Below, in pieces: positions 28,960-48,259 of a DNA stretch of 55,248 nt. Source of the stretch: Planctomycetota bacterium (GTDB lineage: Bacteria > Planctomycetota > Phycisphaerae > Phycisphaerales > Phycisphaeraceae); contig JAJRXX010000007.1 in the NCBI GenBank assembly GCA_024276075.1, forward strand, positions 1 through 55,248, given 5' to 3'. The notes under the pieces are model-generated. The model did no database searches, was not told the origin of the DNA, and was given only the letters and a program-made list of their open reading frames with translations. Numbering within the stretch: the stretch's first letter is position 1; every line of letters starts with the position of its first letter. Position numbers and translations under genes: made by a program.

Positions 28960-31598
28960 CCTCGTACACCGCTGTTAACACGCCGATCAAGTTTCACGTC
29001 ATGGCACAAATCGCTCCGATCAAAATCGGCCTGGACCCCAGACTCAACTCATGGGCTGCTGAAATCAAGTACGTCCTTCGTACACTCATGCGCCTCGCCG
29101 GCTACCCGTATGAGTTTCACGCAGCGCCACACGACGCATCACCCAAAGACTTCGATCTCTACTACGGCCTATCGCCCAAATCCGCTAGCGCCACCGTCGT
29201 CATTGTCGCGTGTGGCAGACACTTTACCGGCGCGCCCTGGCTGCAACCCGATCGTCTCGATCTGAGCGGGGGTTTGACCTTTCTCAACTTTGGCCAATCA
29301 AAAACAGAGCCGCTTCAAAGCACCGACAAGACACTGCACTTTAGCAACGACATCATCTTCGCCTGCTACTGGCTGCTGGTCGGTGCACCTGAGCCGCATT
29401 ACCCCCGAGACCAGCGTGACAATCTCGACCTAACCGGCTCATTCTTCATTGAACAGGGTCTACCTACCAAGCCACTGGTCTCGCAGTACGCGGCGTTTCT
29501 GCGGCGCCATTTTGCCGATCTTGGCCAAACGCCTCTGGACCTGCCCTGGGCGAGCGCGGGCCCAACGGCTGCCGTGGCGTTTACACATGACGTGGACTAC
29601 CCGCAGATGATCCGTTGGATCGAGTGCCTGCGTCTGTTGCGATCACGAGGCGTCGGCGGGACAGCGCTAATGAGCAAAGTCGTCTGCGGCCAAAGCCACT
29701 TCTGGCAGTTCGACCCATGGATCGAATTAGCCAAACAATACGGCACGCGGCCGGCGTTCTACTTCATGGCACGACAGGGTTCGCTGCTCGAATACGCGCT
29801 GGGCACGCCCGACGCTTTCTATGACATTGGGCAACCTGAATTCACCGACCTGTTCCGTCGGCTAACCGACGACGGCTGTGAGGTCGGCCTGCACGCTTCC
29901 TACCACGCCCACCAAGACGTTCGGCGTATCCGCTGTGAAAAACACGCACTCGAACAGGCCGCGAAAGTCACCGTAACGGGCAACCGCAACCACTATTGGC
30001 ACCTCGATCCTACAATGCCGCACGAGACCCTCCACCGCCATGAGCAAGCAGGCTTGGCTTATGACAGTTCGCTAGCGCTGGAGTTTTACCCCGGATTCCG
30101 TCGCGGCATCTGTCATCCGTTTCGACCGTTTCACCCCGGCCAACGGCGTGAGCTAGACCTCATCGAGCTGCCACCCGCTTGGATGGACGATCATTTTGAT
30201 CAACGCCTGGCCAAAAACCGTATCGAAGACCCCGTCGGCTACGCCAAGCAATTGCTCGACACCGCACGCGACACGGCTGGCATCGTCATCGTCGACTACC
30301 ACGTGCGCGGGATGAACGAAGACTTTTTTCCCGCCTACGGCCGATGGCTGCGGGCGTTCGCCGACGAGCACCTCAGCAGCAGCGATTCGTTTCACACGCC
30401 AGCCGAGTTGGCACGCATGTACACGCAATACGAACAGCAACTAACCGCGCACAGCAGAGACCTGACCGACGCGACTACGGCATCGGCGAGACAGGCTGTG
30501 ACCGTCACCCCCGACGCGCAGCATGCTGACGGTGCTGTCTGCGTGGGACAACTGCAAATCGGCGAAGAAGACCAATGGGATGCATACGCAAATGCCCACC
30601 CACGGGGCAACGTCTACCACACCCAAGCGTGGCGCGGCGTCACGGAAGAAGGGTTTGGACACAGGGCTTACTACCTTCGGGCTGTCGATAGCGAAGGCAA
30701 ATTCGTCGGCATCCTTCCGCTATTTCTCGTCGATGGCCTGTTCGGTCGCCGTCTTGTATCGGTCCCGATGCGTGACCGCGGCGGTGTGCTCGCCGACGAT
30801 GCTGACGTGGCCTCACGTCTTGTGGGAAAAGCCGCCGAGCTGACCCGCCAGCTTGACTGCCAATATCTCGAATTGCGGTCTGACAGTGCCCCGGACCAGA
30901 CCGTGATCCGCGACCATGATCTGCATTGCTTCCATCACTGGACGACCACGCGGATCGACTTAACCCCCGGCACCGACGCGCTGTGGAAGGGCCTGGACCG
31001 AAAAGCCATCCGCTGGGCCATTAACAAAGCTCGCAAACAGGGCATCCGGATCGAGCAGGACGACTCTCTAAAAGGGGTCCGATTGTTCTATGAGATGTTC
31101 GCCCGTACACGGCATCAGATGGGTATCCCGCCGTTTTCGTTTCACTTTTTCGAGGCCATCTGGCGGCACATGATATCCACCGGCAAGGCCAACCTCTTCG
31201 TTATCTGGAAAGATCGCACCCCGATCCACGCGATGATCAGTCTGTTATCAAATGATCGCTTCGTACCCGCTTACGCAGCGCCCCAGAACGAATTTCGCAA
31301 GCTCTATCCCAGCGAGCTTATGATCTGGCACACGATCGAATGGGCTGCGCAGCACGGGTTCCACACCTATGACTTCGGTGCCGACTCGCCTCAGCAGTTC
31401 GGGCTGATTTGGTTCAAATCCAAATGGGGCGGACGCCAACACCCCATGTGCTACAGCTACTATCTGAACAAACAGGAGCATCCCCCAAACTTTGACTCCA
31501 GTGATACGTCCTTTTCCCTGGCCCGCGCCGTCTGGCCCCGGCTGCCCGCGGCAGTGAGCAAGCACCTGGGCGCCTGGGTCACTACACAGTTGAGCTGA
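28956..31598 (+). CDS. Fusion of deacetylase-like domain and FemAB-like acyl/aminoacyl transferase
   Basis: 880 residues. The N-terminal part (about 20-200) lacks known motifs. It is followed by a CE4-like barrel with FTHDVDYPQ (209-217), EVGLHASYHAHQD (309-321) and GNRNHYWH (342-349), as in the DUF7033-type deacetylases. After a linker, residues ~525-860 match FemAB-like proteins of EPS loci: WDAYANAHPRGNVYHTQAW, GFGHRAYYLRAV, GILPLFLVDGLFGRRLVSVP, IRWAINKARKQGIRIE and the C-terminal FDFGAD-like YDFGADSP. These two activities are usually separate genes in exosortase-linked EPS loci. Coupled to the preceding deacetylase by overlap. Confidence 0.88.
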   Translation: MTSYTAVNTPIKFHVMAQIAPIKIGLDPRLNSWAAEIKYVLRTLMRLAGYPYEFHAAPHDASPKDFDLYYGLSPKSASATVVIVACGRHFTGAPWLQPDRLDLSGGLTFLNFGQSKTEPLQSTDKTLHFSNDIIFACYWLLVGAPEPHYPRDQRDNLDLTGSFFIEQGLPTKPLVSQYAAFLRRHFADLGQTPLDLPWASAGPTAAVAFTHDVDYPQMIRWIECLRLLRSRGVGGTALMSKVVCGQSHFWQFDPWIELAKQYGTRPAFYFMARQGSLLEYALGTPDAFYDIGQPEFTDLFRRLTDDGCEVGLHASYHAHQDVRRIRCEKHALEQAAKVTVTGNRNHYWHLDPTMPHETLHRHEQAGLAYDSSLALEFYPGFRRGICHPFRPFHPGQRRELDLIELPPAWMDDHFDQRLAKNRIEDPVGYAKQLLDTARDTAGIVIVDYHVRGMNEDFFPAYGRWLRAFADEHLSSSDSFHTPAELARMYTQYEQQLTAHSRDLTDATTASARQAVTVTPDAQHADGAVCVGQLQIGEEDQWDAYANAHPRGNVYHTQAWRGVTEEGFGHRAYYLRAVDSEGKFVGILPLFLVDGLFGRRLVSVPMRDRGGVLADDADVASRLVGKAAELTRQLDCQYLELRSDSAPDQTVIRDHDLHCFHHWTTTRIDLTPGTDALWKGLDRKAIRWAINKARKQGIRIEQDDSLKGVRLFYEMFARTRHQMGIPPFSFHFFEAIWRHMISTGKANLFVIWKDRTPIHAMISLLSNDRFVPAYAAPQNEFRKLYPSELMIWHTIEWAAQHGFHTYDFGADSPQQFGLIWFKSKWGGRQHPMCYSYYLNKQEHPPNFDSSDTSFSLARAVWPRLPAAVSKHLGAWVTTQLS

Positions 31599-31600
31599 CG

Positions 31601-32296
31601 ATGGCCCCCGACCCGACAAACGCACCACCGGCCCCAGACGACCCGGGCACCATCGTCTACCGCTTGGCGCAGGCCGGTGATGTTGAGCACGCTTGTGGGA
31701 TATTTTTTGAGAATTTTCCACACCGACTCCAACGGCTGTTTAACCGCGACCAGCACGGCAAGTGTTTCTTGAGCGACTTGATCGAATGGTACCTTTTGGC
31801 GTACAGCCAAACGTTTTTCACCGCTCATTGCAACGACCAATTGGCTGGATACCTGATCCTTACGATGCCCAACGATCACACATGGTCGAGTCTCTTTCGG
31901 CGGGGATGGATATTCCGAACGGCTACACACGCTCTGACGGGTCGGTACGGCTACCGGTTTTTGAGCCAAGTCATCAGGAGATTAGCTGGTTCAATCACTT
32001 CTACATCCAGCGCACCGCCACGCCACACCCCCCACGTCCCCATCGTCGCTGTTGACGGTCGTTACAGCGGCAGGGGTATTGGCACCCACCTGATGTCTCA
32101 AGCCATGGACGCCTGCCGACAATCGTCCGGAAAAATATGGCTTAATGTTGAATCTGATAACCACCCGGTGATACGGTGGTACAAGAATTTAGGGTTCCAG
32201 ATCATCGGCACCGATTCGCAGCAGCACATCATGCTGTGGCACGCCGACGCGACCCATGACCAAACCCAACACGATGAGCACGATCACAGTGTGTAA
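31601..32296 (+). CDS. GNAT-family N-acetyltransferase
   Basis: 231 residues. The acetyl-CoA-binding motif VDGRYSGRGIGTHLMSQAMD (R/Q-x-x-G-x-G/A type) and the following DNHPVIRWYKNLGFQII are classic GNAT. The N-terminus IVYRLAQAGDVEHACGIFFENF is the acceptor part. Substrate unknown; in this context an amino sugar is likely. It starts 2 bases after the FemAB fusion and its His/Asp-rich C-terminus overlaps the next frame. Confidence 0.88.
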   Translation: MAPDPTNAPPAPDDPGTIVYRLAQAGDVEHACGIFFENFPHRLQRLFNRDQHGKCFLSDLIEWYLLAYSQTFFTAHCNDQLAGYLILTMPNDHTWSSLFRRGWIFRTATHALTGRYGYRFLSQVIRRLAGSITSTSSAPPRHTPHVPIVAVDGRYSGRGIGTHLMSQAMDACRQSSGKIWLNVESDNHPVIRWYKNLGFQIIGTDSQQHIMLWHADATHDQTQHDEHDHSV

Positions 32297-34046
32297 AAAG
32301 ACTGACTCTAGAGAGCCCAATCCAGTGATGCCGGGACTCTACGCCTCGTTGGCCTTGGCTCAAACACCACGCCTCTTGGCGGCGATCGATCGTCAACCGC
32401 ATTCGCGCAGTTTTGGCAGCTTCGACCGTCAACACTGGGGGTGGAAGTTTCAAGACTTTCCAGCCAACATGCTCCAGATCGCCATGTACCCGCTGGCACT
32501 GTTGTGGCGACACCCGTTCCAGGACAACCCGTACCACCAAAACCCGCAACTTCTGACTTGGGTCCATGCCGCGATCAGCGAGACCTGCCGACGCCAACAC
32601 CGCAACGGTGCCTTCGACTCCGTTGGGCCCTACACGCGAGACCACGGCGTGACGCTGGCGATGGCCTACGGCCTAGCGGAAACCGCGCAGTTGCTAGGTC
32701 GTAATCTGCCCGCCCCACTGCGTGGCCAAGTCATCGACGCGATTGCTCGCGCCTGCCGATTTGCGCGTTACAGTACCGAAGATTATGCCTTCATCAGCAA
32801 CCACCACGCACTGTTCGCATTGGCGTATCTCGAAGCAGGAAAATTGCTCGATGACCTCACCCTGCAACAACAAGCAGATCGCGTCATCGAACAAATCATT
32901 CACCACCAGTCCTCTGAGGGCTGGTATCACGAATATACGGGTCCAGACCCCGGTTACGAGTCGCTTGGTATCCATTACCTCGCCGCCTGTTGGCGCCACA
33001 CCCGGTCGAAGTCGTTACTCGACTCTTTACGCTGCAGCATCGAGTTTTACGCCCATTTCGTGCATCCCGACGCCAGCGTCGGCGGCGCCTACGGCTCACG
33101 GCACACGTCGCTGTACTTCCCAGCGGGGTTTGAAATCTTGGCGCAGCACATCCCGATGGCTGGGACGGTCGCTCGGTTCATGCGCCAACGGCTCGACCGG
33201 CACAATGTCCTGACACCCGCTGTGGTTGATGCGCAAAATCTCGCACCGCTGCTCTATTCGTACCTTGAAGCTGATCTTGCTTATTCTGACGTGCTATCTT
33301 CCGATACAACCACCCTGCCGTGCCAGTCACTGGTCGGCACGCTGAATTTCACCGACTCGGGTCTGACTGTGGCTGGCTCCGATCGTTACTACGCTGTGAT
33401 TAATACTGAAAAGGGCGGGGTCTGCCGAGTTTTTGACCGCCGCACCGAGAAGATCGCCTACGAGGACGCGGGCTACGTCTTGACCGTCGGCACGCGACGC
33501 TGGACCTCTCAGAATACCGCGGACGGTCGGTGCCAAGACACCGAAGCCAAGGACGAGGTCGCCTGCACCGCCACGCTTGCCGAAGCCCGTCAGGAACTGC
33601 CCACACCGTTTCGGTTTGTCATTCTGCGGCTGCTAAACCTGACGCTGTTTCGCAGCCTGACACTGGGAGCTTGGCTACGAAGGATCATTATCGGACGATT
33701 GATCCTGGCCAAGAAGCCCGCGCCCGTCCGCCTGACGCGAAACGTCGTCTTCGGTTCTGACAGCATCGCGTTCAGTGACCAGCTTCAGCTCGATCAGCCC
33801 GCTCACGTGGATCAGGTTGCACTGCCTAGGACGTTTACAGGTATCCATATGGGTTCGGCAAAGTACTTTCATTTGTCAGAACTCGAACCGACCCCCCACG
33901 TTCGGGCCGATGATATGACGGTCGAGCTCAACCACAGAGGCTGCGCATCATGCTCGTTTGTCATACGATGGGACCATGAGGCTGGCGACATACCGGCGAT
34001 TGAGATATCGGACTCAGATCAAGTCGAAACAGGGGAGAAACCATAG
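32256..34046 (+). CDS. Alpha/alpha-toroid protein, heparinase II/III-like (uncharacterised)
   Basis: 596 residues. The N-terminal two thirds are helical repeats (MYPLALLWRHPF, GVTLAMAYGLAETAQLLG, SNHHALFALAYLEAG, EGWYHEYTGPDPGYESLGIHYLAACW), the layout of an alpha/alpha toroid as in polysaccharide lyases and terpenoid-cyclase-like folds. The C-terminal third (from ~360) is beta-rich, as in heparinase II/III. Candidate active residues are His in SNHH and Tyr/Glu in YHEYTG (inference). Starts at 32256, 32274 or 32328 are all possible; the first overlaps the GNAT by 41 bp. No signal peptide. It may trim or epimerise the polymer or a precursor. Confidence 0.8.
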   Translation: MTKPNTMSTITVCKKTDSREPNPVMPGLYASLALAQTPRLLAAIDRQPHSRSFGSFDRQHWGWKFQDFPANMLQIAMYPLALLWRHPFQDNPYHQNPQLLTWVHAAISETCRRQHRNGAFDSVGPYTRDHGVTLAMAYGLAETAQLLGRNLPAPLRGQVIDAIARACRFARYSTEDYAFISNHHALFALAYLEAGKLLDDLTLQQQADRVIEQIIHHQSSEGWYHEYTGPDPGYESLGIHYLAACWRHTRSKSLLDSLRCSIEFYAHFVHPDASVGGAYGSRHTSLYFPAGFEILAQHIPMAGTVARFMRQRLDRHNVLTPAVVDAQNLAPLLYSYLEADLAYSDVLSSDTTTLPCQSLVGTLNFTDSGLTVAGSDRYYAVINTEKGGVCRVFDRRTEKIAYEDAGYVLTVGTRRWTSQNTADGRCQDTEAKDEVACTATLAEARQELPTPFRFVILRLLNLTLFRSLTLGAWLRRIIIGRLILAKKPAPVRLTRNVVFGSDSIAFSDQLQLDQPAHVDQVALPRTFTGIHMGSAKYFHLSELEPTPHVRADDMTVELNHRGCASCSFVIRWDHEAGDIPAIEISDSDQVETGEKP

Positions 34047-34048
34047 AC

Positions 34049-34888
34049 ATGAAGCTCTACGTCCTACTACCGGCCTACAACGAAGAGCAGGCGCTGCCTC
34101 CCCTGGCCCAGAAAATCGACGACACCGCCAAAGAGCACGGCATCGATTACTGCATCGTCGTGGTCAACGACGGTTCGAGCGACGACACCGCGCGTGTAGC
34201 CGAAGAACTGGGGAAGCAATACCCCATCGACCTTGTCTCTCACAAATACAACCGCGGCTTGGGCGAAACCATCCGCGACGGCTTCGAGTATATATGCGAA
34301 CTTGCCGCGCCGGACGACATCATCGTCCGCATGGACTGCGACGACACCCACCACCCCAAGTACATCCCCACCATGATCGAAAAAATTAACCAGGGGTACG
34401 AGGTCGTCATCACCTCGCGTTACGCGCCCGGCGGCGGACAGATCGGGGTCAATTGGTATCGGCGTGCCATGAGCCGTGCGGCCAATTCTCTGATGAAGAT
34501 GATCTTCCCCATTCCCGGCGTGTGGGAATACTCTTGTGGGTACCGCGCGTACCGCGCCTCAGCGATTCAAGACGCGATCGCCATCTTCGGAAATAGGTTT
34601 ATCGATCTCAAGGGCATGGGGTTTACCGGCACCGTCGAGAAGATCATCAAATTTAAGATGATGGGCGTACGCATCACGGAGATTCCATTTGTGCTCCGCT
34701 ACGACCAAAAAATCGGGGTCAGCAAGGTTGTCTCGAGCATCACGACGCTCGGCTACCTCGCGCTGATTCTTAAAAACATCGTCTACTGGGGCGACATCGG
34801 CAAGACCTGGCAAGAGAAGATCGCCGAGCGCAAGGCCCGTGTCTACGGCCCCGACGGAAAATTGATCGACAAGCAGGGGGGCGCTTAA
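34049..34888 (+). CDS. Glycosyltransferase family 2, dolichyl-phosphate-mannose-synthase-like
   Basis: 279 residues. MKLYVLLPAYNEEQALPPLA, VVNDGSSDDTARVAEEL, RGLGETIRDGFEYI and the DXD segment RMDCDDTHHPKYI are typical of DPM1/polyprenol-phosphate sugar synthases. IPGVWEYSCGYRAYR and ITEIPFVLRY follow. There is no membrane helix. It would load a polyprenol phosphate with a sugar, a good donor for the three GT-C enzymes downstream (inference). Two bases separate it from the preceding stop. Confidence 0.92.
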   Translation: MKLYVLLPAYNEEQALPPLAQKIDDTAKEHGIDYCIVVVNDGSSDDTARVAEELGKQYPIDLVSHKYNRGLGETIRDGFEYICELAAPDDIIVRMDCDDTHHPKYIPTMIEKINQGYEVVITSRYAPGGGQIGVNWYRRAMSRAANSLMKMIFPIPGVWEYSCGYRAYRASAIQDAIAIFGNRFIDLKGMGFTGTVEKIIKFKMMGVRITEIPFVLRYDQKIGVSKVVSSITTLGYLALILKNIVYWGDIGKTWQEKIAERKARVYGPDGKLIDKQGGA

Positions 34889-34891
34889 TCC

Positions 34892-36856
34892 ATGTGCGGC
34901 ATTGCCGGCATTATTGAACGTGACTCGCAGTGCCCCGCGAATCGTGATGCGGTGGGCACCATGATGGACACGCTAGCACACCGCGGCCCCGATGCCGGTG
35001 GCATCTACGTCGACGGACCGGTCGCGCTGGGACACCGACGCCTATCCATCATCGATCTCGAATCGGGTCGTCAGCCCATGGCGAACGAGGATCAGTCCAT
35101 TTGGCTGGTCTTCAACGGTGAAATCTACAACTACCTCGAACTGCGGTCAGACCTCGAACGTAACCACGACTTCCGCACGAACAGTGATACAGAGGTGATC
35201 CTCCACCTGTACGAGGAGCTGGGCGAGCGGTGTCTTGAACGGCTCAACGGCATGTTCAGCTTCGCGATCTGGGACCAGCGTCAACAACGACTGTTTGCCG
35301 CGCGTGATCGGTTGGGTATCAAGCCTTTTTATTGGCACGCTGACGCCAACCGATTCAGCTTTGCCAGTGAGCCGAAAGCTCTTCTCGCCGCGGGACTGGT
35401 CAAGCCGCAGCCCGATCCCGAAGGCCTCGAGCAGTACCTCACATTCCAGTTTTGCCTCAATGATCGCACCATGTTTAAGGATGTCTGGCGTCTCGAGCCG
35501 GGCCACTACCTCATCTTTCGGCCCACTCGTGACACCTCGCCTAATATCGTCCGGTACTGGGATTTTAACTACGAGCTCGATACCCACCACACCGAAGACT
35601 ATTACGTCGATCAGCTTAAATACCTGCTCAAGGACTCTATCCGGCTTCGGCTACGCAGCGACGTCCCCGTCGGTGGTCACATGTCCGGCGGCATCGATAG
35701 TTCCACCGTCGCTTGTCTGGCTGCCCCCCAGTACTCCGGGCAGTACCACACGTTTACCGGTGCGTTCCGCGATGGGCCGCAGTACGACGAGACCCATTAC
35801 GCCCGCCTCGTTGCCGAACACGTCAACGCCGCCCACCACGAGACTTGGCCCACCGCGCAGGACTTCGCCGATGTCATGCCCTGGCTGATCTACATGATGG
35901 ACGAACCCGCCGCTGGTCCCGGGCTGTTTCCACAATTTTTCGTTTCAAAGCTCGCACGCGAAAACGTCAAAGTCGTCCTGGGCGGTCAGGGCGGTGACGA
36001 AATCTTCGCGGGCTACGCACGCTACCTCGTTGCTTACCTCGAGCAGTGCCTCAAGGGCGTCATCTTCGGCTCACAGGAAGAGGGCAAGCACATCGTCACA
36101 TGGGACAGTATCGAGCCGAACCTCTCGCTGCTACGGCAATACCGCCCCATGCTCCAGAGCTTCTGGCGCGACGGTCTGTTTGATGAAATGGACACCCGTT
36201 ATTTCCGGCTCGTGAGCCGTATCGAAGACGCCACCACGCTCATGTCCGGCGACGTCTGGACCGCTGACAGTCAGCCTCGCATGTTTACCACGTTTCAACA
36301 GACGTTTAATAACCCCGCTGCCAAGAGCTATCTCAATAAGATGACCAACTTCGATCTCAAGACGCTCCTACCTTCGCTCTTGCAGGTCGAAGACCGCACC
36401 AGTATGAGTGTTTCGCTCGAGTCGCGTGTGCCGCTGCTGGATCACCGCATACCCGAGCTGATCACGCGCATGCCACCGACTGCCCGTTTCAAAGGCGGCG
36501 ACACCAAGCGCGTCTTCCGCGAAGCCGTGCGAGACCTGCTGCCTGCTGAAATATTTAACCGCAAGGACAAGATGGGCTTCCCCGTGCCGTTGTCCGATTG
36601 GGTCAAGGGTCCGCTGCGTGACTTCATCGGCGACATTCTCCTAGGCCCCACCGCTCGGGGGCGAGGCATCTACCAAATGGAAGGCATCGAAAAACTGATC
36701 CTCGAGGAACAAAAATTCGGACGTCAACTCTGGGGTTTGCTGTGCCTTGAGCTGTGGAACCGTGCCTTTATGGACGGACAAAAAATCACACGCCCCTCGT
36801 CTGCTCCGCCGTTGACCGTTGTCGCTGCTGATGAGCCGTCCCGTCGCGCATCGTAA
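34892..36856 (+). CDS. asnB: Asparagine-synthase-type glutamine amidotransferase
   Basis: 654 residues. N-terminal class II glutaminase with nucleophile Cys2 (MCGIAGII), LAHRGPDAGG, GHRRLSIIDL and FNGEIYNY. C-terminal synthetase domain with the PPi loop MSGGIDSS (264-271), MDEPAAGP and GGQGGDEIFAGYARY. In EPS and O-antigen loci such proteins (for example WbpS) amidate the carboxyl of uronic acids, and the nearby wbpB/D/E/I genes make a uronic acid substrate, so this role is more likely here than free asparagine synthesis. Three bases after the GT2 stop. Confidence 0.93.
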   Translation: MCGIAGIIERDSQCPANRDAVGTMMDTLAHRGPDAGGIYVDGPVALGHRRLSIIDLESGRQPMANEDQSIWLVFNGEIYNYLELRSDLERNHDFRTNSDTEVILHLYEELGERCLERLNGMFSFAIWDQRQQRLFAARDRLGIKPFYWHADANRFSFASEPKALLAAGLVKPQPDPEGLEQYLTFQFCLNDRTMFKDVWRLEPGHYLIFRPTRDTSPNIVRYWDFNYELDTHHTEDYYVDQLKYLLKDSIRLRLRSDVPVGGHMSGGIDSSTVACLAAPQYSGQYHTFTGAFRDGPQYDETHYARLVAEHVNAAHHETWPTAQDFADVMPWLIYMMDEPAAGPGLFPQFFVSKLARENVKVVLGGQGGDEIFAGYARYLVAYLEQCLKGVIFGSQEEGKHIVTWDSIEPNLSLLRQYRPMLQSFWRDGLFDEMDTRYFRLVSRIEDATTLMSGDVWTADSQPRMFTTFQQTFNNPAAKSYLNKMTNFDLKTLLPSLLQVEDRTSMSVSLESRVPLLDHRIPELITRMPPTARFKGGDTKRVFREAVRDLLPAEIFNRKDKMGFPVPLSDWVKGPLRDFIGDILLGPTARGRGIYQMEGIEKLILEEQKFGRQLWGLLCLELWNRAFMDGQKITRPSSAPPLTVVAADEPSRRAS

Positions 36857-36885
36857 TTACGATCCACCTCTACGCGTAACTGAAT

Positions 36886-39546
36886 ATGAATACCGAGCCA
36901 CAAACGATTAAGCCCAAACCTGTCAGCAAGGCCTGGTTCCATGTCGACATGGACGGGTTGGACGCCATCTACCAAGGCCACGGCTTACCGTACAACCTCG
37001 CACGCGACGACTTCTACACCTCGGCGGTTGACAACTCGCTGAGCTTCTTCGCCCAGCAAGGCGTCATGGCCACTTACTTTTTGATCGCCCGCGACCTCGA
37101 CGACCCGCACAAGCGTCCCGCCATCGAGCGTGTCGTCGACGCCGGCCACCGTATCGCCAGCCACAGCCTCAACCATAAATACCTCTACAAGATCACGTCT
37201 GACCAAAAACGCGAAGAAATATTCGCATCCAAGCAAAAGATCGAAGACACCCTGGGCGTCGCCTGCGAGGGTTTCCGTGCGCCGGGCTACTCGATCGACA
37301 CCGAGTCGCTGCACATGCTCAGCGAGGCTGGGTACCGGTACGACAGCTCGGTTTATCCGAATTACGCTTTCAGGAAACGCTTGGGGATCAACCGCCTATT
37401 CCCCGAGCCGTTCGCCCTGTTTCCCGAGAATAATTTCTTTGAAATCCCCATGCCGTCGCTGGGCCTGGGTCTGCCCCCGTTCCACCCTTGTTACGCGTTT
37501 TACCTCTCGCGGTGGTATTCGCATCTGGCTCTGCGGGCGTTCCGGAAACGGTTCAATTATCTTACGTACCTCTTCCACTTCACCGATTTTGCCGATCCCC
37601 AGCCGCACAACCACGGGATCAAGCTCAACGTTTTCACTAACAACTACTTCTCACGCGACTGCAAGCTCAGATTTCTCGCCAAGCTCGTCAAGCCGATCCG
37701 CGATCATTTTGAGATTACCACCACCGAAGAATTTCTCAGCGATTGGCCCGACTCCGCGCCGGACCTCAACCCGCGCACCATCCTGGGTATCGCCACCACT
37801 CACGAAACCGGTGCGTGCATTGTGCGTGACGGCAAGGTCCTCAGCGCCATCAGCGAGGAACGCATCTCACGCATCAAGCTCGACAATCGTTTCCCGCCCA
37901 AGCGTGCCATCCGCCAGGCGATCCGTGTCGCCGGCATACAGCCGAGCGACATCGACGCCGTCGCCATATCTGGCCTGCACTGGACCGATCTGATACCCCA
38001 GTCGCTTGATAGCTTTCGGCAAGACTTCAAGGACTATCACGCATTCAACGATTACTTCCCTCACTTTTGCCGCATCTTTTATCGCGTGTTCTACCTTTGG
38101 CGGGCTATGGCGTACGGGCGTGTGAGCCGCTACCTCAAACGAGAATACGGCGTCGCGCCCAAGGTCTTCCACGTCGAGCACCACGAGGCGCACGCCTCGA
38201 GCGTCTACCGCACCGGCGATCACGACGATGCTCTGATCGTCACCGCCGACGGCGTGGGCGACGATGTTTGTATCACGTTTTCACACGCACACGGATCTCT
38301 GATCCAGCGGGCCGAGACGTTTTTCTACCCCAACTCTTTTGGCCAATTTTACACCGCCTGTACGCAGATTCTCGGGTTCAAAGCCGGGCGACACGAGGGC
38401 AAGATCACCGGCCTGGCGGGCTACGGGAAGCCTAACCAACAACTGATCAATGCTGTCGAGCAAACGTTCTTCAACCACGACGGCGGGTTCAGGCTCAACA
38501 AATATTACTACAGCGAAGGCTTCTTGCGCATCCATATTGACGACGTAAAAAAGATGTTCAAAGGCCAGTACAAGGTCATTTCTGCTGACTACCGCAACTA
38601 TAAAATGCCGCTCAAACGACTGCTTCAGGGCTATTCACGTGAAGACGTCGCCCATGCCTTTCAGCACTTACTCGAACGTGAGATGGTCCGTCTCACACGC
38701 CGACACATGCGCGACGATCAGGCACTGCACCTGATGCTGGCGGGCGGGATATTCGCCAACGTCAAGCTCAACATGGCTATGTCACACGATCTTGACGCCG
38801 AATCCATTTTTATCTTCCCCGCGATGGGTGACGGTGGGTTGTGCGTCGGCGCGGCGCTGAGCGTACCCGGGACCACGCCCTCGTCCATTCCCAACGTCTA
38901 CCTCGGCACTGAGCATACCGATCGTGAGATAGACGAGGCGCTCAAACGCCACCCGACGCTCTCGTACACCAAGCCCGACGACATCGCTCAGTGCGTTGCC
39001 CAGGCGCTGGCAGATAAAAAGATCGTCGCCCGATGTGCCGGACGTATGGAGTACGGGCCACGCGCCTTGGGCAACCGTTCGATCCTCTACCACTGCGCCG
39101 ACCGCTCGGTCAACGACTGGCTCAACGAGCAGCTCAACCGCACGGAGTTTATGCCTTTCGCGCCCATGGCACTCTGGGAAGATGCCGACGAATACTTCCT
39201 GCTCAAGGACGGTGAGAAACGCGCCTGCGAGTTCATGACACTCGTCGCCCGCTGCACCGAAAAGATGATCCAAGCCTGCCCCGCAGCGGTCCACGTCGAC
39301 GGCACCGCTCGGCCACAGCTTGTACGACGCGATCTCAACCCTGGCATGTACGACATCCTCGTTGCGTATAAAAAGATCACGGGCATCTCGTGTGTCATCA
39401 ATACCAGCTTCAATATGCACGAGGAACCGATCGTCGAGTCTCCGCATGACGCCATCAGCGCGTTCCAGCAGAGCAAGATTGACCACCTCGTCCTGGGCCC
39501 CTACTTTGTCCAGGCCACGTCAGCCTCGAGTCAAGATACCGACTGA
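36886..39546 (+). CDS. NodB-like deacetylase fused to NodU/CmcH-type O-carbamoyltransferase
   Basis: 886 residues. Residues ~15-290 form a CE4 deacetylase: HVDMDGLDA (Asp21, Asp23), ASHSLNHKYL (His93, His97), FRAPGYS (130-136). From ~296 a complete carbamoyltransferase follows: ILGIATTHETGACIVRDG, EHHEAHASSVYR (about 431-442, metal/phosphate-site histidines), IVTADGVGDD, then the YrdC-like C-terminal domain with GRMEYGPRALGNRSIL (about 719-734) and NTSFNMHEEP. It should use carbamoyl phosphate and ATP to carbamoylate a sugar hydroxyl. NodB and NodU act on the same sugar in Nod factors but are separate proteins there. Confidence 0.92.
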   Translation: MNTEPQTIKPKPVSKAWFHVDMDGLDAIYQGHGLPYNLARDDFYTSAVDNSLSFFAQQGVMATYFLIARDLDDPHKRPAIERVVDAGHRIASHSLNHKYLYKITSDQKREEIFASKQKIEDTLGVACEGFRAPGYSIDTESLHMLSEAGYRYDSSVYPNYAFRKRLGINRLFPEPFALFPENNFFEIPMPSLGLGLPPFHPCYAFYLSRWYSHLALRAFRKRFNYLTYLFHFTDFADPQPHNHGIKLNVFTNNYFSRDCKLRFLAKLVKPIRDHFEITTTEEFLSDWPDSAPDLNPRTILGIATTHETGACIVRDGKVLSAISEERISRIKLDNRFPPKRAIRQAIRVAGIQPSDIDAVAISGLHWTDLIPQSLDSFRQDFKDYHAFNDYFPHFCRIFYRVFYLWRAMAYGRVSRYLKREYGVAPKVFHVEHHEAHASSVYRTGDHDDALIVTADGVGDDVCITFSHAHGSLIQRAETFFYPNSFGQFYTACTQILGFKAGRHEGKITGLAGYGKPNQQLINAVEQTFFNHDGGFRLNKYYYSEGFLRIHIDDVKKMFKGQYKVISADYRNYKMPLKRLLQGYSREDVAHAFQHLLEREMVRLTRRHMRDDQALHLMLAGGIFANVKLNMAMSHDLDAESIFIFPAMGDGGLCVGAALSVPGTTPSSIPNVYLGTEHTDREIDEALKRHPTLSYTKPDDIAQCVAQALADKKIVARCAGRMEYGPRALGNRSILYHCADRSVNDWLNEQLNRTEFMPFAPMALWEDADEYFLLKDGEKRACEFMTLVARCTEKMIQACPAAVHVDGTARPQLVRRDLNPGMYDILVAYKKITGISCVINTSFNMHEEPIVESPHDAISAFQQSKIDHLVLGPYFVQATSASSQDTD

Positions 39547-39621
39547 TCACCCGTCAGCCACGACGTTTACCAGCATTTTTCGCCTGCTGATTCATCAGCT
39601 TCGACACTGGAACTGTCACTC

Positions 39622-41424
39622 ATGAACACAGCCCATACCCATTGCACGTGCGATCGACTGCCGCTGATACTTATTGTGCTCACCCTAGCCGTCTACCTGC
39701 CTGGCTTCACATGGGGCATCCCACACGCCACCGGCGCCGATCGCACCCACGCCTGGGGAAACGACGATCAGGTGCCCTTGGCGCCGCTGGCGGAGATGCA
39801 CAACACATTCGTCGTCGCCAAGCCCGATCGCAACATTGCGTACCCCTGGTTCCATTACGGATTACTAGCTGCGGCATACAGCCCGTACCTGGTCTACCTT
39901 TACTTCACCGGCGAGATCACCAGTCCGACCGGCGTCTACCCCTTCGGCTTAAATGATCCTGTCACTGCTTTTCGCCACCTATCCTGGATCGGCCGACTGG
40001 TCAGTCACGCTCTGGCCATCGCCGTGGTTCTGGGGATGTATTACGCTGGCAAACACCTCTGGGGACGCTTGGCCGGCTTCCTGGCTGCGGTCTTTACCAT
40101 GCTCTTGTTTCCGATGGCGTATTACGCCAAGCTGGGTAATCCTGACGTACCCGTCCTCGGATGGACCTGCCTGGGATTGGCGTTTTGCGCTCTGATCATC
40201 CGTGAAGGGTTAACCTCCAAACGCGCTGCTTGGCTTGGCGCGTTTATGGCCATAGCTGCCGCCACAAAAGACCAGTCCGCGGGGTCCTTCATCCTCCTGG
40301 CCCCGCCGCTGCTGGTGATGCACCTATTCTCAGGCCGACCCGACCGGACGCTTTTGCAATACAAGAATACATGGTCGCCGATTGTGGCCAATCTCTTGAG
40401 CTTCGCGGTTGTGTACGCCATTGCTAGCGGCATCCCCGTCGACCCCACGCGGTTCGCGCAACACGTTTCCAAAACGCTGATGGCCGGCACCACGACTAAG
40501 CTGTATTCCATCTCGCGTCACCCCGCTACACTCGCTGGATACGCCCACCAAGCCTTCGACATCTTCGCATACATGATCGATGTCATGGGTTGGCCGTTGT
40601 TGATAATGTCGTTCGTCGGGGTCGCATTGGCAACCGTGCGTGACCGCAAGCCACTGATCATACTCCTCGCATCGCTTGGGTTTTTCCTCATACTGCTGCC
40701 CGTGCGGTTTACACGCGTCCACTACTCACTACCGATTGCCGTTCCGTTCACCCTGTTCGCCGCCTACGCCGCTTGCGTGGGCTTACAACACAGATTGAAG
40801 CCGATCCGTGCCGTGACACTGATCGCAATCGTTTGTGCCGTCGGGGGTCTACTGCTCAACACACTTAGCCTTAACCACGACATGCGACACGATGCTCGAT
40901 ACGCAGCCGCCGATTGGCTCGACCAACACACGCTCCCCGGCGATCGGCTGATCTATTTCGGTGGGGGGCTGCAGGTCCCGCCGCTGCGGGAGGACGTCGG
41001 AACGATCCCGATCTATTACCGTGATGAGGCTCGACCCGCGCTCGTTGAGCAACGCCCCGAATTCGTCCTGGTCATGCCGCTCGACTTTAATGAAGACCGT
41101 CAGCGCGTCGAGTGGCGACGCGGCCCGCACTCGGTCCGCAGCGATTACCTCCCTCCGGATGTCTTCGACGATCTGGCTGATGGGTCGCTGGGCTACCGGC
41201 TTGTCGCCCAGTTCCAGAGCCCGCCGTTGTTTACTTGGTGGGATCGCCCGTTCCTGACGTACGCCACGGTCAATCCGCCGATCCAGATATTTGTCCGTGA
41301 CGACCGTGCCGGCGACGCCCCCAGGCTCGATCCTTGGCGTACCGCGCCGTACAACCCCCGACACATCCGCATCCGTGAACGCACCGTCGACTGGATACAA
41401 GAAAACCCATTGCCGCAATCATGA
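39622..41424 (+). CDS. GT-C membrane glycosyltransferase (GT39/ArnT-like), paralog 1
   Basis: 600 residues with about ten membrane helices and a soluble C-terminal region. The first loop carries DRTHAWGNDDQVPLAPL (acidic pair of the GT-C catalytic loop) and YPWFHYGLL. YYAKLGNPDVPVLGW follows in the membrane part. The extracytoplasmic tail starts near YAAADWLDQHTLPGD and ends with TVNPPIQIFVRDD. It should transfer a sugar from a polyprenyl-phosphate donor on the outer membrane face. Overlaps the next paralog by 4 bp. Confidence 0.88.
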   Translation: MNTAHTHCTCDRLPLILIVLTLAVYLPGFTWGIPHATGADRTHAWGNDDQVPLAPLAEMHNTFVVAKPDRNIAYPWFHYGLLAAAYSPYLVYLYFTGEITSPTGVYPFGLNDPVTAFRHLSWIGRLVSHALAIAVVLGMYYAGKHLWGRLAGFLAAVFTMLLFPMAYYAKLGNPDVPVLGWTCLGLAFCALIIREGLTSKRAAWLGAFMAIAAATKDQSAGSFILLAPPLLVMHLFSGRPDRTLLQYKNTWSPIVANLLSFAVVYAIASGIPVDPTRFAQHVSKTLMAGTTTKLYSISRHPATLAGYAHQAFDIFAYMIDVMGWPLLIMSFVGVALATVRDRKPLIILLASLGFFLILLPVRFTRVHYSLPIAVPFTLFAAYAACVGLQHRLKPIRAVTLIAIVCAVGGLLLNTLSLNHDMRHDARYAAADWLDQHTLPGDRLIYFGGGLQVPPLREDVGTIPIYYRDEARPALVEQRPEFVLVMPLDFNEDRQRVEWRRGPHSVRSDYLPPDVFDDLADGSLGYRLVAQFQSPPLFTWWDRPFLTYATVNPPIQIFVRDDRAGDAPRLDPWRTAPYNPRHIRIRERTVDWIQENPLPQS

Positions 41425-43094
41425 ACACCGACACACTGTCACCAACTAAAAACCGCGATCAATGGCTGCTGTTCGCCGCTGCCGTGGCGGTTTACCTGCC
41501 CGGTTTTGGCTGGGGACTCCCCTACGCCACGCAGTACGACCGTATCCACGGCTGGGCGACCGACGCCGTTACGCCCCTCGACCCACTGGTTCAATTCTAC
41601 AACCTCATGCAAGGCGGGCCCTACGAGTGGATCTGGTACCCGCTGATGCACCACGCCCTGCTCGTCGTTGTGTATTCGCCTTATCTGCTCTACCTCTTCG
41701 CCACGGGTCAGTTCTCCAACCCATCAGCGGAATTCCCCTTCGGCCTAGCCGACGCGTACACCTCACTTCAGGTTCTGGAATACCTTGGCAAGGCCGTTAC
41801 GCTGGCCATGGCCGCCGGTACCATCGTCATCGCCTATCGCATCGCCCACACCCTTTGGGACCGAGCCACCGCGCGTCTCGCGGCTGTCCTTTTCATGCTC
41901 ACGTATCCCATGTTCTACTACAGCAAGACCGGCAATGTGGACGTTCCCCTGCTGTTCTGGACCGCGTTGGCCATCTTGGTCTTTATCCAGATCACGTACC
42001 ACGGTTTCTCGGTACGGCGTGCGGTTTGGCTGGGTAGTTTTGTCGCCGTCGCCACCGCTACCAAGGACTCGGGCTGGGGAAGCTTCGCCCTGATGCCTCC
42101 GATCCTGCTCGTGCTGGACTACCGCCGTTCAAAACAGACCGGCGAACCGATGTCGTGGAAACCTTACATCTTCGGACCCCTCGCCTGTCTCGTCGCGTAC
42201 CTGATCGGTACCGGCATGGTCATTGATCCCCAGCGTCATATTGCCCACATCGTGTGGATGCGTCAGCACGCGCTGCTCCCCGAGCAATATCACCATCCCG
42301 CCACGCTTGCCGGCTTTGCCGCCCTGCTCCCGGAGGTACTTTGGCACATCGCCGAATCAATCGGCCCGGTTACACTGGTCATCGCAACGGCGGGGTTGAT
42401 TATGGCCGCAATGTGTACGCCGCACAGCCTCGTCGCGATTGCGCCCCCGATCGGCTACGCCCTGGGCTTCTTGGCGCTTACACGCTTGTCTCTGCTGCGG
42501 TACGCCATCCCGCTTAATTTTATTGCCTGTATCTTCGCCGCCTACGCGCTTGCGCGTGGTATGCGGGCGCCCCACCTTTGGCAACGACGCCTATCGTGGT
42601 CGCTGGTGATACTGGTTTGCGCATGGCAATTGATACTCGGAGCCGATCTGACGTATCAGATGATCAACGATTCACGTTATGCCGCCGCCGATTGGCTCGA
42701 CGAACATACCCAGCCGGGCGACGTGATCGCTACGACCGCCACCATCGCCGCGCTGCCACGAACCAAACCCGGCATCGAGCACCTCTCCTTCCACCGTGTC
42801 GATGACGATGCCGAACTGATCGCCCAAGAGCAACCCGATGTTATTATTGTGATGCCCAACTGGCTTGCACCCAAAGGGGCGTTGTACCCCACCACGTTTC
42901 CCGACCATGTTTACAAAGCCCTGGCCGACGGATCGCTGGGCTACGAGAAGGCCGCGTATTTCAAAACCGACTCGCTGGTCAAACGCCAGATACTCGACTA
43001 CCCCACGGTCAACCCGCCGATCGAGGTCTTTGTCCGATCCAAGCCGCTGACGGGTACCGGTCAATCTGACGGATCAATCGCAACGCCCCCGTAA
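41421..43094 (+). CDS. GT-C membrane glycosyltransferase, paralog 2
   Basis: 557 residues, same layout as its neighbours. First loop DRIHGWATDAVTPLDPL, YPLMHHALL, then MFYYSKTGNVDVPLLFW. The region EVLWHIAESIGPVTLVIAT and AGLIMAAMCTPHSL is the part found again, decayed, at the end of paralog 3. The tail has YAAADWLDEHTQPGDVIA and TVNPPIEVFVRS. The ATG overlaps the stop of paralog 1. It probably has a different donor or acceptor from its siblings after duplication. Confidence 0.88.
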   Translation: MNTDTLSPTKNRDQWLLFAAAVAVYLPGFGWGLPYATQYDRIHGWATDAVTPLDPLVQFYNLMQGGPYEWIWYPLMHHALLVVVYSPYLLYLFATGQFSNPSAEFPFGLADAYTSLQVLEYLGKAVTLAMAAGTIVIAYRIAHTLWDRATARLAAVLFMLTYPMFYYSKTGNVDVPLLFWTALAILVFIQITYHGFSVRRAVWLGSFVAVATATKDSGWGSFALMPPILLVLDYRRSKQTGEPMSWKPYIFGPLACLVAYLIGTGMVIDPQRHIAHIVWMRQHALLPEQYHHPATLAGFAALLPEVLWHIAESIGPVTLVIATAGLIMAAMCTPHSLVAIAPPIGYALGFLALTRLSLLRYAIPLNFIACIFAAYALARGMRAPHLWQRRLSWSLVILVCAWQLILGADLTYQMINDSRYAAADWLDEHTQPGDVIATTATIAALPRTKPGIEHLSFHRVDDDAELIAQEQPDVIIVMPNWLAPKGALYPTTFPDHVYKALADGSLGYEKAAYFKTDSLVKRQILDYPTVNPPIEVFVRSKPLTGTGQSDGSIATPP

Positions 43095-43125
43095 CAATGG
43101 CTCGTCACGCATCGCGCACACACCC

Positions 43126-45087
43126 ATGAAATCATTCATCTCGCGCATCCCCCGTACCCCGGCGCTACTGGCGCTGTTGGCGTTAGCGATCTACCTGCCC
43201 GGCTTCTGGTGGGGCGCCCCTCACGCCACCGCGCCCGACCGCACCCACGTCTGGGCCATCGACGCCATGCTCCCGCTGGGACCGTTGTCCGAGGTCCACA
43301 ACATCATCGATCCCAAACCCGACCGGTCGCTGAGCTATCCCCTGATGCACTTCTTCACCCTTGCCGGCGTGTACGCGCCGTACCTGGCATACCTCAAGCT
43401 CACCGGCCAACTCGGCAGCATCACCGGCGTCTACCCATTCGGATTAATTGACCCAGCCGCTGCGCTCTACACGCTTTCACTAATTGCCAAGATGGTTTGT
43501 GTGCTGTTTGCCGTGGGTATTGTCCTGGCCGCCTTCTATGCCGCCGAGGCGTTGTGGGATCGCCACACAGCCGTATTGGCCGCGATCTGTGCCATGGTTT
43601 CTTACCCCATGTTCTTCTACTCACGCGCAGGGAATATTGACGTCCCCGCTCTGTTTTATGCCGCCGCTGCAATGGCAGTGTTCGCACGCTGTATCACCAC
43701 GGGACTGACACCCTGGCGTGCACTATGGCTCGGTGTATTCGTCGGTTTCGCTGTGGGCACCCGTGACGCGGTGTACTCGCTGTTTGTGGCCATGCCAATC
43801 GTCCTGTTGGCGGTACACCGGCCTACGATCGATTCGCACAATCAATCCACAGCCGGACGGTTATCCTGGGCTTTCTGGAAAGCCCCGTTCGCGGGGTTGC
43901 TGGGCGCTTTCGTTGCGTATGGCTCCGGTAGCGGCCTGTTTATCGAGCCCCATCGCTATTTCGCGCACATCGCTTTTCTCAAACAAAACGCTCAAAACTA
44001 CGCTTCAGGCAAGATTCAGATGATCCACACCTTCCCTTTCACGCTTGAAGGGCACCTCGGGCTGGCTAGGCTCGTCACTCATTACATGATCGACGCCATG
44101 ACACTACCCGGGCTGCTGCTGGCCGGCTTCGGCGTGGCGTGGGCGATCCGACGCAGGTCTATCGCATCCACACTCGTACTACCCACGCTCACCTATCTAG
44201 CGCTGACGCTATTCTGGTCGGGCCGCGTCGCCGAACTTCGGTACATCATGCCTGCGGTTTTGCCTCTCGCGTTGTTCGAGGCACGCGCACTGACCGTCTT
44301 CTGGGAGTCGCCAAAACCGCTGATCCGTACCGCCTGCGTCATGCTGGCGGTTGGTGTCATCGGCCTCAATATCCTTCGTGGTGCCGACCTGACCTATTTG
44401 ATGATCTACGACTCACGGTACACCGCCAGCGATTGGCTCGACGAACACACACAGCCGGGCAACGCTGTAGCCATATTTGGACCTCAAGCCGTACAGCCAT
44501 TCTTCAAATACGGCGTCGTCACCACGCAGGTTGATCCATTCATCGGCCTCGCTCCTGGCACCATCCGCGATGACGACGAATCGACACGGGTTATCATCAA
44601 TACTTGGCAACGTGAGAAGCCCCGTTACATCGTCATTATGCCCGACTACACCAGTGCCCCAGGCCTCGAGCACAGCGGCACCTGCCCGCCACAGGTTTAC
44701 CAACGCCTGCTCGACGGGTCACTGGGCTACCGTCAAAGCGCACATTTCAAAACCCCGAACTTGTTCGCCTGGCTAAAACGACCCATGCCGACCTTTATCA
44801 AACGCGATCCGATCATCACGGTGAATCCATCGGTTCGCATCTTCACGCTCATCGGCGACGACGCTATGCTCAAGAAGTGCTCTGTCACAACTCCGAATCG
44901 ATCGCTCGGTTACACTCGTTACCGCAGCGACGGGGCTGATTACGGCCGCAATATGTATACCGCACAGCACCGTCTCCGATCGGCTCGAAGAATTCACCCT
45001 GCCGGACAATGTGATCGCCATCACCGGCACCTAGCACCGCAGATTCACGGCATCATTGCCGCCGCCGCACGCAATTATAAATTGTAA
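43126..45087 (+). CDS. GT-C membrane glycosyltransferase, paralog 3, with chimeric 3' end
   Basis: 653 residues. DRTHVWAIDAMLPLGPL, YPLMHFFTL, MFFYSRAGNIDVPALFY, YTASDWLDEHTQPGN and TVNPSVRIF line up with its siblings, so the enzyme proper ends near residue 575 (about 44850). The last ~80 residues (GYTRYRSDGADYGRNMY and on, Arg/His-rich) come from an out-of-frame fragment of a fourth paralog and have no family counterpart. The frame then overlaps the opposite-strand gene by 35 bp. The extension probably does not hinder the membrane domain but marks a deletion event. Confidence 0.87.
   Translation: MKSFISRIPRTPALLALLALAIYLPGFWWGAPHATAPDRTHVWAIDAMLPLGPLSEVHNIIDPKPDRSLSYPLMHFFTLAGVYAPYLAYLKLTGQLGSITGVYPFGLIDPAAALYTLSLIAKMVCVLFAVGIVLAAFYAAEALWDRHTAVLAAICAMVSYPMFFYSRAGNIDVPALFYAAAAMAVFARCITTGLTPWRALWLGVFVGFAVGTRDAVYSLFVAMPIVLLAVHRPTIDSHNQSTAGRLSWAFWKAPFAGLLGAFVAYGSGSGLFIEPHRYFAHIAFLKQNAQNYASGKIQMIHTFPFTLEGHLGLARLVTHYMIDAMTLPGLLLAGFGVAWAIRRRSIASTLVLPTLTYLALTLFWSGRVAELRYIMPAVLPLALFEARALTVFWESPKPLIRTACVMLAVGVIGLNILRGADLTYLMIYDSRYTASDWLDEHTQPGNAVAIFGPQAVQPFFKYGVVTTQVDPFIGLAPGTIRDDDESTRVIINTWQREKPRYIVIMPDYTSAPGLEHSGTCPPQVYQRLLDGSLGYRQSAHFKTPNLFAWLKRPMPTFIKRDPIITVNPSVRIFTLIGDDAMLKKCSVTTPNRSLGYTRYRSDGADYGRNMYTAQHRLRSARRIHPAGQCDRHHRHLAPQIHGIIAAAARNYKL
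44850..45034 (+). pseudogene. Remnant of a fourth GT-C paralog
   Basis: In a shifted frame the DNA encodes EVLCHNSESI, then after a 1-nt deletion SVTLVTAATGLITAAICIPH, then directly SDRLEEFTLPDNVIAITGT and TAG. Paralog 2 has EVLWHIAESI, PVTLVIATAGLIMAAMCTPH and, about 90 residues later, ADWLDEHTQPGDVIATTAT. So two separate segments of a paralog are joined by an internal deletion. Confidence 0.8.
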
Positions 45088-46972: not shown

Positions 46973-47251
46973 CGTGACCCCTTCAAACGGTTATGTGACC
47001 CGCTAACCTTGTATTGTCCGCCCCGAAATACGCATCCAGAAAATGTGTGTCAAAATAAGTATAGGCTGGATTTGGTCTCACTCCACTATTTCAAAACCAA
47101 CCGAATCTAAATCACGTTTCAATTTCGAAAATTATTATACGGATCTCAAAAGCTTTTGGCCTATTCTCGTTTTTGAACTGTTTTCCAGTAAATCACAACG
47201 CCCCGTGATGTAGGTCAAATTTTTTTGCGATCCGTATTAGACTACACAGCC
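46973..47251. other. AT-rich divergent intergenic region
   Basis: 279 bp between the opposite-strand gene and the AglD-like gene, clearly AT-richer than the locus. No gene or clear promoter pair identified; it must hold start signals for both. Confidence 0.5.
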
Positions 47252-48259
47252 ATGTCCACGACACGCAAACCCTTGCCTACAATGACCCAAACACGCCGAA
47301 TATTCAGCATCTTGTTTCGCGTGGTCATCGCTGCGGTGCTGTTGATTTACCTTTGGCATTCAGGCGCTATCGACTGGTCTGATCTCATCGGGTTAATCGA
47401 AGCCTGGCCATTGGCCGGAGCCGCTACGATTTTGCTGCTCACCGCCGCCGCTGTAGGCAGCTCCAGGCTGTGCGTCTTACTCAAACCACAGGGGCTGCAC
47501 CTTTCGTTTATGGACTCTTTTCGGCTGCTGCTGGTTGGACAATTTTTCAACACCTTTTTGCCCAGTTCGACCGGGGGCGACGTCGTCAAAATCTACTACG
47601 CCTCAGCGGGCAACCGCGGCCGACGCACCGAGGTCACGACGATTATCTTGCTCGATCGAGCGTTTGGCATGTTCACGATGGTTCTTTGGCCACTGCTGGC
47701 AGCTCCGTTTTTCGCCACTATCATCTCCGACTCCCAAACACTTCAGAGCCTGCTCTGGGCAGACGCGTTGGTTGTAGTCATCTTGGTAACCGTCATGCTC
47801 CTGGGCATGACCAGTCGTGTACGAGACAGCCGCGTCATGGCTTGGGCATTTAAACGACTACCGTTAGGCGGTTACTTGCAGCGTATCTTTGACACCATCC
47901 ACACCTATCGCCACCACAAATTCGCCATGATGGCCGCGCTTGGTATATCAATCGCTGCACAAGGGCTCAGCTTGGTAGCCATGCTCTTGATCGCGCAAGC
48001 GACCAACGCTGACGGCTATGCTTGGCGCATGCTCGTTGTGATCCCCCTGGGGCTGGTCGCCAATACGATCCCGCTCACCCCAGGCGGGTTGGGCGTGGGC
48101 GAAGCGGCGTTCGAAAAACTATTCTTGCTAACCGGCCTCACCGGCGGAGCCGTGGTCATCCTGGGCTGGAGACTCCTGATGACCCTCATCAGCCTGCTCG
48201 GTTTAGCCGTTTATCTAAAAGGGCGACAGCAGTTCGTCCACGACGCGTCCACCGCCTAA
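47252..48259 (+). CDS. Lysylphosphatidylglycerol-synthase-TM-domain (AglD-like, UPF0104) membrane protein
   Basis: 335 residues from the ATG at 47252 (a TTG at 47225 and an ATG at 47282 are also in frame). Seven to eight helices with the family hallmarks FFNTFLPSSTGGDVVKIYY (about 100-118) and PLTPGGLGVGEAAFEKLF (about 282-299). Members act as flippases or associate with lipid-linked glycans (AglD-like) or lack the MprF catalytic domain, as here. In this locus a role in lipid-carrier handling is possible but unproven. Confidence 0.9.
   Translation: MSTTRKPLPTMTQTRRIFSILFRVVIAAVLLIYLWHSGAIDWSDLIGLIEAWPLAGAATILLLTAAAVGSSRLCVLLKPQGLHLSFMDSFRLLLVGQFFNTFLPSSTGGDVVKIYYASAGNRGRRTEVTTIILLDRAFGMFTMVLWPLLAAPFFATIISDSQTLQSLLWADALVVVILVTVMLLGMTSRVRDSRVMAWAFKRLPLGGYLQRIFDTIHTYRHHKFAMMAALGISIAAQGLSLVAMLLIAQATNADGYAWRMLVVIPLGLVANTIPLTPGGLGVGEAAFEKLFLLTGLTGGAVVILGWRLLMTLISLLGLAVYLKGRQQFVHDASTA

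Follow-up and report, generated by a model that had tools for sequence, protein, structure and literature searches.

A predicted CE4 deacetylase fused to a class III carbamoyltransferase in a recurrent sugar-building gene cassette

Introduction

In Nod factor, NodB-type de-N-acetylation and NodU-type carbamoylation act on one terminal sugar. In a 55,248 nt stretch of DNA from a Planctomycetota bacterium (assembly GCA_024276075.1, contig JAJRXX010000007.1; hereafter the window), one reading frame had been interpreted, from its letters alone, as a CE4 domain with metal-binding histidines joined to a full NodU/CmcH-type carbamoyltransferase. The locus raises the questions of whether this fusion is a genuine protein, to which families its halves belong, and whether they could act on the same residue of a glycan.

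The Fused Reading Frame and Its Active Sites

The ORF listing of the window has an ATG-started, uninterrupted frame of 886 aa lying exactly at 36886–39546 on the forward strand (as are all features below unless stated). By Pfam, a CE4 domain (PF01522, residues 41–152, 37006–37341; 66.9 bits, cut-off 23.1) is followed by the two domains of a class III (CmcH/NodU-type) carbamoyltransferase: the N-terminal, Kae1-like part (PF02543, residues 299–658, 37780–38859; 150.1 bits, cut-off 24) and the C-terminal, YrdC-like part (PF16861, residues 705–876, 38998–39513; 193.2 bits, cut-off 27). The signature GRMEYGPRALGNRSIL occupies residues 719–734.

On alignment with 3qbu, a peptidoglycan deacetylase of H. 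pylori, the D-x-D motif of the CE4 half falls at D21-M-D23 (36946–36954) and the HxxxH motif at H93 and H97 (37162–37176). We take D21 to be the catalytic base, D23 the metal Asp and H93/H97 the metal His residues, with R131 and H231 presumably the other CE4 motif residues. In the carbamoyltransferase half, H306 (37801–37803) aligns with the general base H27 of GdmN, while H432 and H436 (38179–38193), D455 (38248–38250) and D649 (38830–38832) align with its iron ligands H133, H137, D156 and D333, as numbered in the accessible part of PMC9633730. All eleven positions are identical in the eight full-length fused proteins compared (8 of the 9 found; G1207, which was found later, was left out), so that the Asp-His-His metal site and catalytic Asp of CE4 enzymes and the general base and iron ligands of GdmN are retained in each. 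Across eight fused proteins, identity to the window fusion is 34–59% in the CE4 half and 48–65% in the carbamoyltransferase half. An AlphaFold2 model of the fusion (pLDDT 83.9, pTM 0.81) matched TobZ, GdmN, NovN and VtdB by Foldseek and, lower down, the CE4 structures 3rxz and 3qbu. Both domains look intact, and the Pfam and residue checks agree with the interpretation from which we started.

Two dangers that had been foreseen for that interpretation, a stop or frameshift near residue 290 and loss of the CE4 metal site on alignment, did not materialise: the frame is unbroken, with intact full-length homologues elsewhere, and D23, H93 and H97 are retained. An assembly artefact or chance ORF is ruled out by full-length homologues without internal stops in eight other genomes, in two of which the contig with the fusion is megabases long (4.3 and 4.6 Mb). 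None of the eight fused proteins scanned has a hydrophobic segment over threshold.

Family Membership

The sequence-only reading had likened the halves to NodB and NodU, and this part of it did not hold. The NodB model TIGR04243 gives the fusion 30.2 bits (cut-off 240) and the NodU model NF041651 gives 128.5 bits (cut-off 1000), which rules out membership of either family, and the gene setting is also of another type (see below). The top curated CE4 model is that of the XrtA-system deacetylase, TIGR03006, at 82.4 bits (cut-off 276.2); it is likewise the best curated CE4 model for the four fused relatives scanned, the scores of all five lying at 70–96 bits, below cut-off. Judged by domains and residues, the protein is both a CE4 and a class III carbamoyltransferase, and it falls short of the NodB, NodU and XrtA deacetylase cut-offs.

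The domain pair had not been known as described. A search of the open-licence PMC literature, as far as its texts were accessible, likewise returned no description of the pair or of the cassette, so that within that body of literature the fusion is a combination of known kinds in an arrangement for which no prior description was found.

Distribution and Phylogeny of the Fusion

Searching genome contigs with the single fused protein returned nothing, and alignment A1 was needed to reveal its relatives. The matches listed from the A1 scan included full-length fusions at L139 and L141 (deposited as Deltaproteobacteria; Myxococcota by tree placement), L140 (Verrucomicrobia) and L143 (Nitrospira), and two copies cut at contig starts, L142 (Planctomycetota) and L144 (Rhodothermia/Rhodothermota). 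The fusion is present in 4 of 29 genomes of the genus of L143 and, full length, in 3 of 377 genomes sampled from the L139 phylum, of which G1207 had not been found before. Full-length fused proteins therefore number at least nine: that of the window, four from one Nitrospira genus, three from Myxococcota and one from Verrucomicrobiota. These counts are lower bounds, as the profile search of genome contigs gave 588 stretches, of which 558 were confirmed and 80 of those listed. Group labels may be mistaken in some cases, since most of the records come from metagenome binning.

No further full-length fused copy was seen among the matches from 61 genomes of the window's lineage (its own included), nor in 400 genomes of its order, 397 of its class or 392 of its phylum, with up to two candidates scored in each genome of the latter three samples; the four samples overlap. 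Vertical inheritance in the lineage of the window was rejected on these samples. One genome of the same family has a carbamoyltransferase fragment (L054 1–741, G018:C244) that is 50% identical over window residues 641–871; it begins at a contig end and may derive from either a fused or an unfused protein. Plasmid records gave 338 with matches, none covering ≥80% of the query, and a single-protein scan of viral contigs gave nothing.

In a 44-row tree, the carbamoyltransferase parts of the 10 fused or contig-end-cut proteins group together in a single clade (100/99), apart from 34 hand-chosen unfused rows, the latter made up of 22 of the 74 unfused loci and 12 earlier rows. The cut copies L142 and L144 fall inside this clade. 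This tree supersedes an earlier one of 87 rows without fused relatives, in which the window sat on a long branch. The single clade suggests one fusion event followed by transfer, which is the simplest reading.

Unfused relatives were inspected for a separate deacetylase using a CE4 profile made for this analysis. Among the matches listed, 12 of 74 unfused loci have a CE4-like gene; in eight the distance to the carbamoyltransferase is at most 500 bases, with the CE4-like gene always upstream and on the same strand, and in the remaining four the distance is 3.7 to 7.5 kb. Pfam agrees in half of the eight adjacent cases, finding PF01522 in four and no family at E 0.01 in the other four. The Pfam-confirmed adjacent CE4 proteins that were scanned are of differing type, that of L200 being nearest to TIGR03006 (179.8 bits) and that of L173 to PgaB (76.2 bits), both below cut-off, and the CE4–carbamoyltransferase pairing may therefore have more than one origin. 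No adjacent CE4-like gene is seen in 66 of the 74 unfused loci among the matches listed, which indicates that this class of carbamoyltransferase often works without one. Two unfused carbamoyltransferases, L252 and L253 (G1091 and G1353), reach 537 and 507 bits against the profile of the fused proteins, and their fetched contigs hold no CE4 gene. At L180 (9001–12526), query residues 299–875 are matched across 3.5 kb, and this copy is perhaps interrupted or duplicated.

The Gene Cassette around the Fusion

The fusion is one of ten consecutive genes on one strand (28180–45087), the distances between neighbours lying between −41 and +75 bases, a spacing that makes the region look like an operon. 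Promoter and terminator scans of 34800–39800 gave counts no higher than in shuffled sequence, with no sigma-70-like promoter found in that interval, and an Rfam scan of the window gave no match.

The first of the ten genes encodes a separate PgaB-like CE4 protein (28180–28959). It is followed by a second fusion, an 880 aa protein (28956–31598) in which a VimE-like deacetylase (residues 110–456) is joined to a FemAB-type acyltransferase (residues 540–879); both curated models fall below cut-off (VimE, 79.3 bits against 440; FemAB, 219.3 against 260.35), and the same fusion occurs at the Nitrospira locus L143. Next come a GNAT acetyltransferase (31601–32296) and a conserved 596 aa protein (32256–34046) without a Pfam match. 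The predicted structure of the latter (pLDDT 72.5) has a polysaccharide-lyase/epimerase-like fold: its matches are chondroitin AC, xanthan and hyaluronate lyases, with human dermatan sulfate epimerase further down the ranking (TM-scores of about 0.4–0.5); despite this predicted fold, it has no hydrophobic segment that would suggest export. A GT2 glycosyltransferase (34049–34888), whose nearest curated model is ArnC (NF007986, 74.5 bits, cut-off 529), and an asparagine-synthase-type amidotransferase (34892–36856) complete the genes upstream of the fusion. The amidotransferase exceeds the cut-off of the general asparagine synthase model TIGR01536 (526.5 bits against 267.1) and falls short of that of the XrtA-type model TIGR03108 (512.9 against 816.9), and an ordinary asparagine synthase is thus a possible identity.

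Downstream of the fusion, three successive genes encode related membrane proteins: one with 9 hydrophobic segments and no family match of its own (39622–41424) and two that are PMT-like and GT-C-like (41421–43094 and 43126–45087). In relatives, the DNA retrieved shows a single gene of this kind. On the opposite strand, a 639 aa ORF at 45053–46972 has 11 hydrophobic segments; neither Pfam nor NCBIfam gave a match for it. Further genes flank the group on both sides. Upstream is an NAD-dependent epimerase/dehydratase (25920–26906) that is a cassette member in Nitrospira; downstream are an LPG_synthase_TM membrane protein (47225–48259), a Gfo/Idh/MocA oxidoreductase resembling UDP-GlcNAc 3-dehydrogenase (48330–49346; below cut-off), a hexapeptide sugar acetyltransferase (49343–49933), a DegT-type sugar aminotransferase (49810–51051) and a UDP-GlcNAc 2-epimerase (51048–52121; over cut-off).

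Eleven loci were compared (the window, L139, L140, L141, L142, L143, L144, L240, L241, L242 and L254), and the VimE–FemAB protein, the lyase-fold protein, the ArnC-like GT2, the amidotransferase, GT-C-like proteins and UDP-sugar enzymes all recur beside the fusion. Of the 11 loci, 9 have the lyase-fold protein (not L140; L254 stops at a contig end there) and 9 the amidotransferase (not L140; L142 offers only 3.3 kb). The VimE–FemAB protein is found in six, counting for L139 an incomplete match that lies in the adjoining stretch L243; the remaining five have too little DNA, or none was seen. The slot ahead of the lyase-fold gene, held by the GNAT gene in the window, is held by an fmt-like formyltransferase in L139 (1672–2421), L143 (2552–3394), L240, L241 and L242; the window has no formyltransferase match.

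Proposed Function and Alternatives

The same fused protein stands in similar sugar-building cassettes of distant groups, which argues for a real enzyme, with its activities predicted. The fusion marks a glycan cassette common to Nitrospira, Myxococcota and one Planctomycetota genome, that of the window, with fused copies in Verrucomicrobiota too, and ties two predicted sugar modifications into one conserved protein. Our preferred interpretation, which we hold to be somewhat more probable than its competitors taken together, is a cytoplasmic bifunctional enzyme whose target is an amino sugar of a glycan precursor: its N-acyl group would be taken off, and the same residue would receive a carbamoyl group, probably on an oxygen. 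The two activities, the residue they share, the O-acceptor and the nature of carrier and glycan are our inferences. With its metal held by D23, H93 and H97, the CE4 half would carry out the de-N-acylation, on a precursor linked to a nucleotide or to undecaprenyl. The YrdC-like part would convert carbamoyl phosphate and ATP to carbamoyl-adenylate, and the iron-binding Kae1-like part would pass the carbamoyl group to the same residue, a hydroxyl being a likelier acceptor than the freed amine. The product would then enter the surface glycan built by the surrounding cassette. A soluble, cytoplasmic glycan-tailoring enzyme acting on a precursor is suggested by the lack of hydrophobic segments together with a chemistry that needs ATP and carbamoyl phosphate. 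The O-acceptor is favoured because hydroxyls, including those of sugars, are the described case for class III carbamoyltransferases in the available text of PMC6022934.

That both halves would act on one residue is a reasonable reading: the single clade of fused proteins favours it, as does the CE4-like gene upstream in 8 of the 74 unfused loci listed (4 of the 8 by Pfam). Alternatively, the halves might modify different sugars or successive intermediates, with the fusion serving co-expression or complex formation only. The 66 listed unfused loci without an adjacent CE4-like gene are in keeping with this, as are the several N-acyl-handling proteins of the cassette; however, the fusion has been kept as one clade across 10 rows, and the placement of a CE4 gene upstream of the carbamoyltransferase recurs in unfused relatives with CE4 proteins of varied type, and we judge separate targets unlikely. 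Counting against the shared-residue reading itself, the separate deacetylase-type proteins of the cassette (28180 and 28956) could supply the amine.

If the freed amine were the acceptor, the CE4 half would expose a nitrogen that the carbamoyltransferase half then carbamoylates, giving an N-carbamoyl (ureido) sugar, which if true would be unusual sugar chemistry. Related TsaD-like folds favour such an exchange, their known acceptor being an amine. StdF, in which a peptidase is joined to a NodU-like carbamoyltransferase, is said in the accessible part of a preprint (PMC13174530) to carbamoylate a lysine amine, a precedent that also makes the O-acceptor less than secure. The neighbouring VimE–FemAB fusion fits as well, since it matches a pair whose proposed role is to unmask the 2-amine of a linking sugar and attach an amino acid to it (PMC7468200, in the sections available). 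StdF and this neighbour are the reasons for keeping the N-carbamoyl product as a reading. Against it, the sugar acceptors described for class III enzymes are hydroxyls (PMC6022934, same text), and a search of the open-licence PMC literature aimed at a ureido sugar found none in the texts accessible; we regard it as improbable. Just as doubtful is its extension, in which this enzyme and a VimE–FemAB exchange of N-acetyl for an amino acid would form a cassette replacing sugar N-acyl groups that has spread among several phyla.

Least probable, with roughly the standing of an outside chance, is that the cassette builds an aminoacylated linking sugar, modified by the fusion, to which an exosortase joins PEP-CTERM proteins: the FemAB- and amidotransferase-type neighbours, the speculation in the available part of PMC7468200 that such loci serve exosortases, and 3 exosortase and 16 PEP-CTERM matches in the window genome speak for it, but 2 of the 4 Nitrospira genomes with the fusion have no exosortase match, as against 2 of the 25 without it, and the same holds for 1 of 5 other carriers; none of the VimE, FemAB and TIGR03108 scores reaches its cut-off, and no exosortase lies beside the cassette among the scanned ORFs of the window. 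Dependence of the cassette on an exosortase was accordingly not upheld, given the carriers without a match. A PEP-CTERM protein is encoded at 4239–4976 of the window.

Returning to the bifunctional, shared-residue enzyme, the joining of its halves means that one purified protein could reveal which sugar is made. It could also show if sugar amines serve as acceptors for class III carbamoyltransferases, and what loci of the VimE/FemAB/amidotransferase type build outside Porphyromonas.

Comparison with Known Systems

NodB and NodU combine CE4 de-N-acetylation with class III carbamoylation, as predicted for the fusion, but they are separate proteins whose curated models are missed by far, in another gene setting. 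TobZ, GdmN, NovN and VtdB have the same fold, base and iron ligands as the carbamoyltransferase half; they lack a CE4 half and act on small molecules. StdF differs in its peptidase partner, its peptide substrate and its lysine N-carbamoylation (PMC13174530, accessible part). The XrtA-system polysaccharide deacetylase differs in that the fusion scores below its cut-off and that its model includes no carbamoyltransferase. In gene content, the surroundings of the fusion resemble Wbp/Vim-type and Arn-type sugar handling and not Nod factor synthesis. The Wbp/Vim linking-sugar pathway of Porphyromonas likewise brings together VimE-like, FemAB/VimA-like, amidotransferase and UDP-sugar genes, but here VimE and FemAB are fused, a CE4–carbamoyltransferase is added and the models score below cut-off. 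The Arn pathway (ArnA/C/D/T) is an analogy only, the ArnC model being below cut-off and the carbamoyltransferase having no Arn counterpart, but the likeness extends to a formyltransferase (in relatives), an ArnC-like GT2, a CE4 enzyme and GT-C-like proteins.
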